Positions 22,145-46,948 of a stretch of 64,000 nucleotides of DNA are shown here, piece after piece; within the stretch, counting starts at the first letter, position 1, and every line of letters starts with the position of its first letter. The stretch covers positions 62,001 through 126,000 of the forward strand of contig NZ_FZPC01000010.1 of the NCBI RefSeq assembly GCF_900187975.1. The letters are read 5' to 3'. Position numbers and translations under genes: made by a program. Below the pieces are notes generated by a model, which saw only the letters and a list, made by a program, of their open reading frames with translations, did no database searches and was not told where the DNA came from. The DNA comes from Pseudomonas delhiensis. GTDB lineage: Bacteria > Pseudomonadota > Gammaproteobacteria > Pseudomonadales > Pseudomonadaceae.

Positions 22145-22375
22145 GGGGCACGCTCCAGGGGCAGGAATTCGGCGTGCGAAGGCCCTGCCCGGAAATCAGA
22201 ATTCGGGTGAAACAGATAAAAATGGAAAGATGAAAAGTCGTTCAGAGAGGGTCGCGAGCAGGCCCTCAGCCGTGCCCGGCCAGCGCGCAGGAACCGCAGC
22301 GTACTTCAGTACGTGAGGATTCCGAGCACTGCCCGGGCGCGGATCAGGGCCGCGCAGCAGCTATCTGGATGACTT
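22145..22375 (-). promoter_or_regulatory. ydcS-ydcT spacer with stem-loop
   Basis: The 231-base spacer has a perfect 6-bp stem CGTACT/AGTACG (22300-22313) flanked by GC-rich sequence with further partial complementarity. Such structured gaps after a binding-protein gene often stabilise the upstream mRNA or stop part of transcription, giving more binding protein than transporter. No gene is seen. Role is inferred. Confidence 0.4.
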
Positions 22376-42736: not shown

Positions 42737-43397
42737 GCAGCGCTACCACCTGCACCCCGAGGCGGCCGGCCAGGCCGTGGACGACTGCTGGAATCGCATC
42801 GGCATCCGCGGCGACAAATCCTGCCCGCAGCTGGCCGAGCACATCCACTGCCGCAACTGCCCGGTCCACGCCAGCGCCGCCGTGCGCCTGCTGGACCGCT
42901 ACGCCCTGGGCTCGGAGAGCGAGCATGTCGCCAGCGTCGGCGAGGAGGCGCCGCCGGGAGATGCCTACCTGCTGTTCCGCATCGGCGAGGAATGGCTGGC
43001 CCTGCGCACCCTGGCGCTGACGGAGGTGGCGCCGAACTGCCCGGTGCATTCGCTGCCGCACCAGCGCTCGCCGGTCTTGCTGGGCGTGGCCAACGTCCAT
43101 GGCACCCTCGTCGCCTGCCTGTCGCTGGCCGAACTGCTCGGCCTGGCCCCCTCCGCCCCGCGCGAGGACGAGGGGCGCCACCGGCCGCGCATGCTGGTGC
43201 TGGCCACCGACAGCGGGCCGGTGCTGACGCCGGTGGACGAGGTGGACGGCATCCACCCGCTGGCGCCGGGCCAGGCGCGCGCCGCCGCGGCGGCCGGCAG
43301 CCGTTTCACCCATGACGTGCTGAAGTGGCGCGAGCGCAGCGTGCGCCTGCTCGACCACCAGGCCCTGCTGGCCGCCGCCGCCCGGAGCCTGGCATGA
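42729..43397 (+). CDS. wspD: CheW-like adaptor WspD
   Basis: A 222-residue CheW-like protein with an N-terminal extension (about 60 residues) holding four cysteines in a CxxC-like cluster (KSCPQLAEHIHCRNCPVHAS), not found in WspB. The CheW domain follows (about 75-220, YLLFRIGEEWLALRTLALTE, GVANVHGTLVACLSLAELLG). The Cys cluster may bind metal or act in redox sensing; this is seen in the sequence but unproven. ATGA overlap with wspE. Confidence 0.92.
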   Translation: MPEQRYHLHPEAAGQAVDDCWNRIGIRGDKSCPQLAEHIHCRNCPVHASAAVRLLDRYALGSESEHVASVGEEAPPGDAYLLFRIGEEWLALRTLALTEVAPNCPVHSLPHQRSPVLLGVANVHGTLVACLSLAELLGLAPSAPREDEGRHRPRMLVLATDSGPVLTPVDEVDGIHPLAPGQARAAAAAGSRFTHDVLKWRERSVRLLDHQALLAAAARSLA

Positions 43398-45673
43398 CCC
43401 CCGAGCAGATGAAGGACGCCTCGCTGCTGGAGCTCTTCCGCCTGGAGGCCGAAGCCCAGGCCCAGGCCCTCGGCCAGGGCCTGCTGGCGCTGGAGCGCGA
43501 GCCGCGCCAGGCCACCCGGCTGGAAGCCTGCATGCGCGCCGCGCATTCGCTCAAGGGCGCCGCGCGCATCGTCGGCCTGGACGAAGGCGTGCAGGTGGCC
43601 CACGTCATGGAGGAATGCCTGGTGGCCGCCCAGGACGGCCGCCTGCTGCTGGGGGCGGAGCATATAGATGCCTTGCTGGCCGGCACCGACATCCTGCTGC
43701 ACATCGCCGACGTCCAGCCCGGGCGGGCCGCCGCGGCGCGTGCGGCGGTGCCGGACCTGGTGCTGCGCCTGCAGGGCCTGCTGGGCGGGGAGACGGCGCA
43801 AGCCAAGGCGCCGCCTGCCGCGCCGCCGCCCGCTCCCGCCGAAGCCGCGCCGCCGGTGCCGCAGCCGCCCGAGGCCGCCGAGCCGCCGCCCGAACCGGCC
43901 GCAGTCGCGAACCCGCGCAGCCCGGGCGAGGAGGGCACGGGTCGGGTGCTGCGCGTCACCGCCGAGCGCCTGAACCAGTTGCTCGACCTGTCCAGCAAGG
44001 CCCTGGTCGATTCCCAGCGCCTGCAACCGCAGCTGGCCTCGATGCAGCGCCTGAAGCGCCTGCAGGCCACCGCCAGCCGCCTGCTCGACGGCGCCCGCGA
44101 CGCCGCCGGCGCCACCCTCGACCCGCAGGCCCAGGCCTTCCTCGCCGATGCGCGGCGCCTGGTGGGCGAATGCCAGCAACTGCTGGGCGAACAGATGGCC
44201 GAGCTGGACGAGTTCGCCTGGACCACCTCGCAGCGCGCCCAGACCCTCTACGACAGCGCCCTGGCTTGCCGCATGCGGCCCTTCGCCGACGTGCTCGGCG
44301 GCCAGGCGCGGATGGTCCGCGACCTCGGCCGCGAGCTGGGCAAGCCGGTGCGCCTGGAGGTGGACGGGGTGTCCACCCAGGTGGACCGCGAGGTCCTGGA
44401 AAAACTCGAGGCGCCGCTGACGCACCTGTTGCGCAACGCCGTCGACCACGGCATCGAGATGCCGGACGCGCGGCGCCGGGCCGGCAAGCCGGAGCAGGGG
44501 CTGATCCGCCTGCTGGCGCGGCACCATGCCGGCATGCTGGTGCTGGACCTGCGCGACGACGGCGCCGGCGTCGACCTGCAGCGCCTGCGCGAAGGCATCG
44601 TGCGCCGCGGCCTGTCCACCGCGGACACCGCCGCGCGGATGTCCGAGGAAGAGCTGCTGGCCTTCCTCTTCCTGCCCGGCTTCAGCCTGCGCGAGCAGGT
44701 CACCGAGGTCTCCGGCCGCGGCGTCGGCCTGGACGCCGTGCAGCACATGGTGCGCCAGCTGCGCGGCGGCATCCGCATGGAGCAGGTGCAGGGCCAGGGC
44801 AGCCATTTCCACATCGAGGTGCCGCTGACCCTCTCGGTGGTGCGCAGCCTGGTGGTGGAGATCGGCGGCGAGGCCTACGCCTTCCCCCTGGCGCACATCG
44901 AGCGCATGCGCAGCCTGGCGGCGGAGGAGATCGTGCAGATCGAGGGCCGCCAGCAGTTCTGGCACGAGGGCCGGCACGTCGGCCTGGTGGCGGCGCACCA
45001 GCTGCTGCAGCGCCCGGAAGGCCGTGCGCCGGAAGGCGACATCCCGCTGGTGCTGATCCGCGAGCGCGACACCCTGTACGGCGTGGCGGTGGAGCGCTTC
45101 ATCGGCGAGCGCACCCTGGTGGTGATGCCGCTGGACGCGCGCCTGGGCAAGGTCCAGGACGTGTCCGCCGGCGCCGTGCTGGACGATGGCACCCCGGTGC
45201 TGATCCTCGACGTCGAGGACATGCTGCGTTCGGTGGACAAGCTGCTGGCCAGCGGCCGCCTGGAACGCATCGACGCCGGCAACCGCCAGGGCGCGATGCT
45301 GCGCAAGCGCGTGCTGGTGGTGGACGACTCGCTGACGGTGCGCGAACTGGAGCGCAAGCTGCTGGCCGGCCGCGGCTACGACGTGGCGGTGGCTGTGGAC
45401 GGCATGGATGGCTGGAACGCCCTGCGCTCGGAGCGCTTCGACCTGGTCATCACGGATATCGACATGCCCCGCATGGACGGTATAGAACTGGTCGGGCTGA
45501 TCCGCCGCGACGCCCGCCTGCAGGCCCTGCCGGTCATGGTCGTGTCCTACAAGGACCGCGAGGAGGACCGCCGCCGCGGGCTCGATGCCGGCGCCGACTA
45601 TTACCTGGCCAAGGCCAGTTTCCATGACGAGGCTCTGCTGGATGCGGTGGTCGATCTGATCGGAGGTGCGTAG
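43394..45673 (+). CDS. wspE: Hybrid chemotaxis kinase WspE (HPt-CheA-receiver)
   Basis: A 759-residue CheA-type kinase fused to a C-terminal receiver. The HPt domain has His51 in AAHSLKGAARIVGL; a Pro/Ala-rich linker (about 135-180) precedes dimerisation and the ATPase (LRNAVDHGIEMPDARRRAGK, LRDDGAGVDLQRL, SGRGVGLDAVQHM). A CheW-like region follows (about 475-620), and the receiver (from about 635) has Asp688 in VITDIDMPRMDG. WspE phosphorylates WspR and WspF. The stop TAG at 45671-45673 is the first codon of the inverted repeat that lies before wspF. Confidence 0.94.
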   Translation: MTPEQMKDASLLELFRLEAEAQAQALGQGLLALEREPRQATRLEACMRAAHSLKGAARIVGLDEGVQVAHVMEECLVAAQDGRLLLGAEHIDALLAGTDILLHIADVQPGRAAAARAAVPDLVLRLQGLLGGETAQAKAPPAAPPPAPAEAAPPVPQPPEAAEPPPEPAAVANPRSPGEEGTGRVLRVTAERLNQLLDLSSKALVDSQRLQPQLASMQRLKRLQATASRLLDGARDAAGATLDPQAQAFLADARRLVGECQQLLGEQMAELDEFAWTTSQRAQTLYDSALACRMRPFADVLGGQARMVRDLGRELGKPVRLEVDGVSTQVDREVLEKLEAPLTHLLRNAVDHGIEMPDARRRAGKPEQGLIRLLARHHAGMLVLDLRDDGAGVDLQRLREGIVRRGLSTADTAARMSEEELLAFLFLPGFSLREQVTEVSGRGVGLDAVQHMVRQLRGGIRMEQVQGQGSHFHIEVPLTLSVVRSLVVEIGGEAYAFPLAHIERMRSLAAEEIVQIEGRQQFWHEGRHVGLVAAHQLLQRPEGRAPEGDIPLVLIRERDTLYGVAVERFIGERTLVVMPLDARLGKVQDVSAGAVLDDGTPVLILDVEDMLRSVDKLLASGRLERIDAGNRQGAMLRKRVLVVDDSLTVRELERKLLAGRGYDVAVAVDGMDGWNALRSERFDLVITDIDMPRMDGIELVGLIRRDARLQALPVMVVSYKDREEDRRRGLDAGADYYLAKASFHDEALLDAVVDLIGGA

Positions 45674-45938
45674 GGTCGGCTCCCGTTTCGGCGCGGCCGC
45701 GACGGAGCCGCATTTTGCGCAGAGCAAGGCGCGAGGAGAGAGGTTTGGTTATTCCAAATGAACGACGAGTAACGCGGCGCTGCGCAAAATGCGGCCCGTC
45801 CCTTCGGGTTGCGCGGCAAATCACGCCATGCGTCGTTGCGGGACTTGCCAAGGGAGCGACCATTGCCTGCGTCCCGCGCCTAGCCTGGCGTGATTTGTCG
45901 CGGCAACGCGGCTCGCGCCGAAACGGGAACCGACCCTA
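45671..45938. repeat. 268-bp nested palindromic element inserted between wspE and wspF
   Basis: Outer arms of 25 bases with one mismatch: TAGGGTCGGCTCCCGTTTCG... (45671-45695) against its complement (45914-45938). Inside are a perfect 16-bp repeat GCCGCATTTTGCGCAG (45707-45722) paired with 45780-45795, a small TTTGG/CCAAA hairpin (45744-45758), a second 16-base pair GCGGCAAATCACGCCA (45813-45828) with 45886-45901 (one mismatch), and GCGGGAC/GTCCCGC (45838-45844, 45871-45877). The left arm begins at the wspE stop and the right arm ends 2 bases before the wspF ATG. It differs from the REP families in the rest of the window and does not code for protein. Confidence 0.85.
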
Positions 45939-45940
45939 AG

Positions 45941-46948
45941 ATGAGGATAGGCATCGTCAACGACATGCCGCTGGCGGTGGAGGCATTGCGCCGCGCATTG
46001 GCCTTCGAACCCTCGCACCGCGTGCTCTGGGTGGCCGGCAATGGCGCCGAGGCCGTGGAAATGTGCGCCGCGCAGACCCCCGACGTGGTGCTGATGGACC
46101 TGCTGATGCCGGTGATGGACGGCGTCGAGGCCACGCGGCGGATCATGGCCGCCTCGCCCTGCGCCATCATCGTGGTCACCGTGGACCTGGAGCAGAACCT
46201 CTCGCGGGTGTTCGAGGCCATGGGCTGCGGCGCGGTGGACGCGGTGAACACCCCGGCGCTGGGCGTCGGCGACTCCCTGGAGGCGGCCCGCCCGCTGCTG
46301 CGCAAGCTGCAGAACCTGGCCTGGCTGTCGGCCCCGGGCAATGCCCGGCCGCGCAGCGAGGTCGCCGTGCGCGACAACCCCGCCAAGGCCCGCCGCCTGG
46401 TGGCCGTGGGCGCCTCGGCCGGCGGCCCGGCGGCCCTGGCCGAACTGCTGGGCAAACTGCCGGCGAGCTTTTCCGCGGCCATGGTGGTGGTGCAGCACGT
46501 GGACGAAGTGTTCGCCGCCGGCATGGCCGAATGGCTGGCCAGCCAGGCCAGCATCCCGGTGCGCCTGGCGCGCAACGGCGAGGTGCCGCAGCCCGGCTGC
46601 GTGCTGCTGGCCGGCACCAACGACCACATCCGCCTGCAACGCAACGGCGAGCTGGCCTACACCGCCGAACCCTGCGGGCACATCTACCGGCCCTCGATCG
46701 ACGTGTTCTTCGACAGCGTGGCCGACAACTGGGTGGGCCAGGCCACCGGCGTGCTGCTCACCGGCATGGGCCGCGACGGCGCCCAGGGCCTCAAGCACAT
46801 GCGCGAGCGCGGCTTCCTGACGCTGGCCCAGGACCAGGCCAGCAGCGCGGTCTATGGCATGCCCAAGGCCGCCGCGGTGATCGGCGCCGCCACCGAGATC
46901 CGCGCCCTGGGCGATATCGCCCGGCGCCTGGGCGAACTGTACGGCTGA
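45941..46948 (+). CDS. wspF: Chemoreceptor methylesterase WspF
   Basis: A 335-residue CheB-type methylesterase that resets WspA. The receiver has Asp53 (VLMDLLMPVMDG) and the catalytic triad is visible as Ser159 (GASAGGP), His (VVQHVDE) and Asp (GMGRDGAQGL). Loss of WspF locks the pathway on and gives wrinkly, high c-di-GMP colonies. The ATG at 45941 fits the family N-terminus. Its ribosome site lies inside the right arm of the palindrome, so translation may depend on that structure. A GTG at 45890 gives 17 extra residues and is less likely. Confidence 0.93.
   Translation: MRIGIVNDMPLAVEALRRALAFEPSHRVLWVAGNGAEAVEMCAAQTPDVVLMDLLMPVMDGVEATRRIMAASPCAIIVVTVDLEQNLSRVFEAMGCGAVDAVNTPALGVGDSLEAARPLLRKLQNLAWLSAPGNARPRSEVAVRDNPAKARRLVAVGASAGGPAALAELLGKLPASFSAAMVVVQHVDEVFAAGMAEWLASQASIPVRLARNGEVPQPGCVLLAGTNDHIRLQRNGELAYTAEPCGHIYRPSIDVFFDSVADNWVGQATGVLLTGMGRDGAQGLKHMRERGFLTLAQDQASSAVYGMPKAAAVIGAATEIRALGDIARRLGELYG

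Follow-up and report, generated by a model that had tools for sequence, protein, structure and literature searches.

The 268-bp palindrome that lies between wspE and wspF in the window (the whole stretch of 64,000 nucleotides of Pseudomonas delhiensis DNA that was analysed) is an insertion. It is very probably a non-autonomous miniature inverted-repeat transposable element (MITE) mobilised in trans by the transposase of an ISPa67-like IS5-family insertion sequence (IS) of about 860 bp. Its sequence places it in a large gammaproteobacterial family with two conserved internal hairpins.

The palindrome and its site in the wsp operon

The preliminary description had reported a nested palindrome filling the gap between the two genes, and this palindrome proved real. 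Indeed, the outer arms are 25 nt long and 96% complementary, the two inner pairs of arms are 19 nt (95% complementary) and 20 nt (90% complementary) long (Table 1), and both the GCGGGAC/GTCCCGC pair (45838-45844/45871-45877) and the TTTGG/CCAAA hairpin are present in the sequence. The element has a predicted RNA fold of -174.3 kcal/mol, against -116.7 +/- 5.1 in 200 dinucleotide-preserving shuffles, none of which was as low (z = -11.35). The sharp edge at a stop codon is there too, with the refinement that the TAG of wspE (45671-45673) is formed by the element's own first three bases.

Table 1. Features of the element and of its flanking genes (positions in the window).
Feature	Position	Strand	Basis or remark
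Whole element, 268 bp, between wspE and wspF	45671..45938	+	copies elsewhere; 22 of 25 genus genomes lack it here
Left TA, target dinucleotide (with the next G, wspE stop TAG)	45671..45672		90 of 154 full-length copies TA...TA
Right TA, second copy of the target dinucleotide	45937..45938		TA ends of copies; single-TA empty site at L080
Left terminal inverted repeat / outer stem arm	45671..45695	+	complementarity search; same type as IS5-family repeats
Right terminal inverted repeat / outer stem arm	45914..45938	-	complementarity search; IS5-family repeat type
Hairpin module 1, arms 45707-45725 and 45777-45795	45707..45795	+	pairing and covariation
Module 1 apical core, conserved, type X	45724..45778	+	about 85-95% identity in other gammaproteobacterial matches
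Middle motif CCCGTCCCTTCGGGTTGCGC, conserved, between the modules	45795..45814	+	41-sequence alignment; distant copies, either orientation
Hairpin module 2, arms 45812-45831 and 45883-45902	45812..45902	-	inverted relative to module 1; pairing and covariation
wspE, CheA-like hybrid kinase	43397..45673	+	stop is the TAG of the element
GGAGG, putative wspF Shine-Dalgarno sequence	45662..45666	+	now 5' of the element; 9 nt before the start in L049 and L051
wspF, CheB-like methylesterase	45941..46948	+	frame intact; ATG 2 bp past the element

The genes are, in order, a CheA-like hybrid kinase, a CheB-like methylesterase and a GGDEF response regulator, which we take from this gene order to be wspE, wspF and wspR. 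As read from the sequence, wspE acquires a TAG stop through the insertion, and the putative Shine-Dalgarno sequence of wspF is parted from the wspF ATG. In an operon without the element (e.g. L049), GGAGG is followed by 9 nt and the ATG, and wspE overlaps the wspF start and ends in TGA; with the element, GGAGG and ATG are 274 nt apart, a distance that shrinks to 6 nt (TGCG and AG) once the element is folded out. A search of 45550-46100 gave no promoter- or terminator-like site. In the transcript, the element would fold into a closed three-way structure whose ends meet, leaving six unpaired bases between the old GGAGG and the ATG, so that wspF would still be translatable and the insertion tolerated. 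Against such bridging, the predicted fold of the wsp context has some of the GGAGG region in paired form. Elsewhere in the window, positions 22239-22314 (minus strand) match the Xanthomonas sRNA sX9 (RF02228) in Rfam with 44.2 bits, for a gathering score of 44.

The wsp query matched all 25 genus genomes examined. Three of them (G000, G008 and G020) carry the element at wspE-wspF, and the remaining 22 have the flanking matches side by side or at most 20 nt apart according to match coordinates, in agreement with the earlier statement that wsp operons lack such an insert. Base-by-base reading covered 13 genomes, 2 with and 11 without the element (minus-strand loci being left out). All 11 relatives without it have CA at the expected target TA, and the right junction differs, so that a target duplication is not directly visible at wsp. 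At each of 12 other sites queried, some relative matched the joined flanks in one piece; 9 of these sites were read at the junction, several of them with small differences and one (L073) poorly. The clearest case is L080, where two relatives (L358 and L372) have a single TA and the copy has two.

Copies, target sites and terminal repeats

A search of relatives revealed the dispersed matches that had been anticipated: 25 of 56 relatives, own genome included, match at 1e-5, and the own genome contains five clear loci and one 25-base match. Four plasmid records carry the element, from Azotobacter (2), Pseudomonas aeruginosa and Halomonas. A pattern scan of GTDB species genomes gave at least 119 stretches; among the matches listed (80 of these) were Pseudomonas, Stutzerimonas, Azotobacter, Ventosimonas, Salinicola, Vreelandella, Chromohalobacter, Solimonas, Salinisphaera and Chromatiales. 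The pooled copies number at least 205, of which 154 are full-length; these counts are lower bounds (candidates scored per genome: 13 among relatives, 2 in the gammaproteobacterial searches), and redundancy was removed at the level of sequences, not of sites. A phage origin was rejected (phage collection without a match; one viral contig).

With the window element as query, 21 of 274 gammaproteobacterial genomes (own included) matched at 1e-10, most of them only near element positions 54-108, which correspond to the module 1 apex. Around 20 such distant places, mostly complete elements of the same plan were found, with the repeat TAGGGCCTGTTAACAC or a similar one; L388 has other ends. With a distant element as query, 29 of 274 genomes matched, the match spanning 266 or more of the 269 positions in 15 of them, and no match was obtained in the E. 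coli genomes searched with this form. Among 23 raw detections in the distant loci (length range searched, 250-311 bp), 16 measure 268-270 bp and 13 are of the form TA...TA. The aligned distant set comprises 16 elements chosen at 265-270 bp, the window's own element, two nested L425 duplicates and four detections of 281-305 bp (L397, L398 twice, L433) having been dropped. These 16 elements come from 15 genomes of 15 families, align almost without gaps and share the same fold; the same architecture occurs in 15 further gammaproteobacterial families.

Several variants were also encountered. An apparent 161-nt form (matches from about 97-106; L112-L116 and L118-L120) was discarded: L112, the only one of these loci that was folded, is a longer element. 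L112 lies at a site near a gene end, found in several species, and combines the usual second hairpin with a divergent first hairpin; L113-L116 and L118-L120 were grouped with it by flank and match pattern. In genome G033, the loci L376, L382 and L383 display a second terminal-repeat class, TAGGGCGTGTCATCAATTG, which accompanies the twin-hairpin core in L376; elsewhere no evident transposase was seen near it. The repeat GGGCGTGTCATCAATTG is present in 10 places within two mismatches in G033, and no transposase was recognised by eye among the ORFs of the two loci listed.

Of the full-length copies, 90/154 start and end in TA, in a YTAR context: the base 5' of the element is a pyrimidine (C/T) in 117/152 and the base 3' a purine (G/A) in 124/153. 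As regards the target-site duplications suggested beforehand, these copies and the L080 site speak for them, and the remaining 64 copies, in which at least one end is not TA, speak against them. Nothing points to a duplication of more than 2 bp; a comparison over 4 bases, one of which on each side belongs to the element, gave 29 agreements versus 16.4 in shuffles (maximum 23), an excess due to the C..G flanks in CTAG context and not to a longer duplication. When both ends are non-TA, they are more often complementary than repeated (GA..TC 6, AA..TT 5, CA..TG 3, TG..CA), which would not be expected from plain duplication. Short dispersed palindromes of Pseudomonas are often REPs, and the lack of a duplication longer than 2 bp would agree with a REPIN/REP-type element that depends on a RAYT (Y1) transposase for its mobility. 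Nevertheless, size (268 bp), ends (terminal repeats of 20-25 bp in common with IS5 elements that have a DDE transposase, and TA in YTAR) and matching transposase differ from those of REPINs and REPs, and this origin seems extremely improbable.

The terminal repeats match those of autonomous elements, namely an 859-bp IS5-family element of Ventosimonas and four others. In the Ventosimonas genome (G026) the terminal repeat occurs 83 times within two mismatches, and two perfect inverted TAGGGTCTGTTCCCGTTTC repeats, identical to the ends of some Ventosimonas copies and one base off many others, bound the 859-bp element in CTAG. This element encodes a 249-aa DDE transposase with DUF4096 and DDE_Tnp_1 domains, which scores 276 bits against the NCBIfam IS5 model (cut-off 110). 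Related ISs from P. avellanae, Raoultella (ISPa67), Azotobacter and Halomonas carry repeat variants of the same type, flanked by C..G; the plasmid ISs are annotated as IS5 family, one of them as ISPa67, and their repeats are GGGTCTGTTCCCGTTTC, GGGTCTGTTGCCATTTC, GGGYCTGTTGACGTTTC and GGGCCTGTTGACGTTTC. These variants are the ones seen in copies of the element, near-identical in the Azotobacter and Halomonas records. If outer arms track the repeat of the local IS, their variation from copy to copy, with pairing kept, would be accounted for. This does not explain everything, since L011, L107, L108 and L129 have the same core and unrelated outer arms.

The genome that contains the window yielded no complete partner: the Ventosimonas transposase had no match at 1e-20 and NF033580 none. 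In the genus, no IS5_3 transposase exceeded the cut-off among the matches listed, weak ones being seen in G001, G006 and G016. An IS630/Tc1 origin, suspected from the TA, was dismissed, PF13358 being found in 7/56 relatives and 0 in the genus, and the repeats matching IS5 elements. Two further observations concern the ISs and their ends: (i) in the IS5-type partners (L280:581-630; same region in L339-L342) an inverted repeat lies in the leader and ends beside the transposase start, its stem varying in sequence between ISs, mostly pairing and perhaps hiding the transposase start; (ii) tiny elements with two terminal repeats and almost nothing between them occur at L298:986-1022, L291:885-936 and L289:1116-1166.

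According to the proposed mechanism, the transposase would act on the terminal repeats and join them to a TA, the target TA being doubled and the junction reading TAG. Such a junction would account for the many copies that lie at gene ends and supply the stop, as in wspE. Indeed, 25 of 85 gene 3' ends facing an element are exactly its own TAG (gene calls from an ORF heuristic, not annotation, and a count without random control), and 3 of 103 sites lie inside an ORF.

The twin-hairpin interior and the level of constraint

The 154 full-length copies gave 141 that passed a length filter and 56 clusters at 90%; the alignment consists of the window element and 40 of these clusters, and the structure was predicted from the same alignment. 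In these 41 sequences, 97.4% of 3645 cells pair; most of the divergent clusters are among the 16 left out, a choice that favours clean pairing. The covariation that was looked for is pronounced, with 56 of 89 pairs changing on both sides and a score of 0.319 versus 0.107 in shuffles (0/500); sliding the pair partners leaves 36-43% paired. Apical sequences are conserved, and stems vary but stay complementary. Furthermore, the two modules, read on opposite strands, share the plan C(A/T)AGGCGC, 36 nt, G(C/T)AAC (module 2, minus strand: CTAGGCGC, 36 nt and GCAACG), so that a single hairpin plan is present twice in the element, in inverted orientation, on either side of CCCGTCCCTTCGGG.

Complementarity could be kept without selection, by copying from arm to arm (template switching in the palindrome) or by gene conversion between copies. 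In orthologous copies at the same site (13 comparisons at 9 sites, partly dependent), 12 double differences preserve pairing beside 45 one-sided differences, an excess over what independent mutation would produce, and several of the 12 fall in adjacent pairs (157/158, 161/162, 158/159), which suggests arm-to-arm or copy-to-copy conversion. Stem variants also recur as blocks, and the complementary non-TA ends would follow from the same process. However, arm copying accounts neither for apical sequences that stay the same from family to family beside variable stems, nor for the length of 268-270 bp in most of the distant copies. Copying of this kind seems somewhat unlikely as the explanation, although it may act together with selection.

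The preliminary description had left the choice between a MITE-like element and a structured RNA. The first of these is supported by the dispersed copies, the empty sites, the TA ends and the IS5 match. The second, a conserved structured RNA or 3' UTR element that is transcribed with hairpin 1 first, serves in stability, processing or as an sRNA and has its pairing selected in RNA, is consistent with the very strong conservation and covariation of the pairs, which are indeed kept. Two asymmetries point the same way: of 51 sites between co-directional genes, 37 have module 1 ahead of module 2 and 14 the reverse order (p = 0.0018; 103 sites overall), and the plus strand folds slightly better in 66 of 100 sampled copies (p = 0.0016). 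The orientation bias hints at an effect in transcripts, against a purely DNA-level view, and is puzzling for a near-symmetric element.

The mispairs nevertheless fit a single selected transcript less well. Among pairs that are at least 85% Watson-Crick in the 56 cluster representatives, G.T and A.C mispairs number 41 and 21 in module 1, 6 and 27 in module 2, and 21 and 34 in the outer stem, whereas in a single RNA G.U should be preferred in the two modules alike. Counted in the direction of the modules, the ratio is 68:27 (binomial p 3e-5), or 28 versus 6 at the level of sequences (sign test 2e-4), p values that serve as guides, the sequences being related; the 16 distant elements go in the same direction (15:8, small numbers). 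The contrast may come partly from arm composition. The one-sided differences between orthologous copies (G.T 15, A.C 15, other 15) look like drift, 27 of the 103 sites lie between divergent genes, and neither the element nor any of seven distant loci reached the gathering score of an Rfam family, the element having only MIR3440 at E 0.34 under a loose threshold. Taken together, a functional RNA appears distinctly improbable.

The mispair pattern seems to fit a constraint at the DNA level better than one selected transcript, and ends read as DNA hairpins could give the opposite mispair signs. In the preferred reading of a trans-mobilised MITE, the two hairpin modules would be structurally constrained in active lineages, and an action as hairpin-forming DNA at the ends of the element appears the most likely function, our first choice from these comparisons. 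More speculatively, the inverted modules could be the true replicating unit, a class-wide DNA element of IS-independent origin in which each end combines a terminal repeat with an inward-read single-stranded DNA hairpin, terminal repeats being exchanged to use different IS5-type transposases in different lineages; this broader scheme is regarded as rather unlikely.

Significance and comparison with known systems

Twin hairpins conserved within about 268 bp in so many families suggest that the structure is required, either for mobility or for tolerance by the host. The insertions are also natural experiments on operons, with an upstream stop supplied and a Shine-Dalgarno sequence parted from its gene; the wsp insertion precedes the presumed repressor of c-di-GMP signalling, wspF, and might have the regulatory effect that the preliminary description considered possible. 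No description of the element was found in the open-access literature searched, including element sequences as text.

The ends are usually regarded as all that a MITE requires, and the twin-hairpin interior combined with the class-wide spread makes this element an unusual variant. Like known MITEs, it is short (268 bp), non-coding, transposase-less and foldable, with at least 205 dispersed copies bearing terminal inverted repeats; it differs from them by its two inverted modules, conserved apices, covarying stems and near-constant length in many families. Mobilisation of MITEs in trans by ISs and the formation of stem-loops by MITE transcripts are mentioned in the part of a review that was consulted (PMC10969869).

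The ISPa67-like ISs of the IS5 family share with the element the terminal repeats GGGYCTGTT..., the TA ends in C..G context and the same genera, and one record, the Azotobacter plasmid pAcX50f, carries both. They differ in being about 860 bp long with a transposase gene, and derivation of the interior from such ISs was not apparent, local matches beyond the repeats being weak in a small comparison with five ISs (best E 0.16). Assignment to the IS427 group would follow from size and 2-bp duplication, as the table rows consulted for IS5/IS427 elements give 832-865 bp and 2-bp duplications, except one of 4 bp (PMC3281130). Finally, the repeats R0, R2, R178 and R200 of P. fluorescens are likewise dispersed and intergenic, some of them proposed as MITEs; in the part of the source consulted the listed sizes are 50-352 bp, none near 268 (PMC2718517). 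R178 and R200 of strain SBW25, considered as candidates, were rejected because their listed sizes do not fit.
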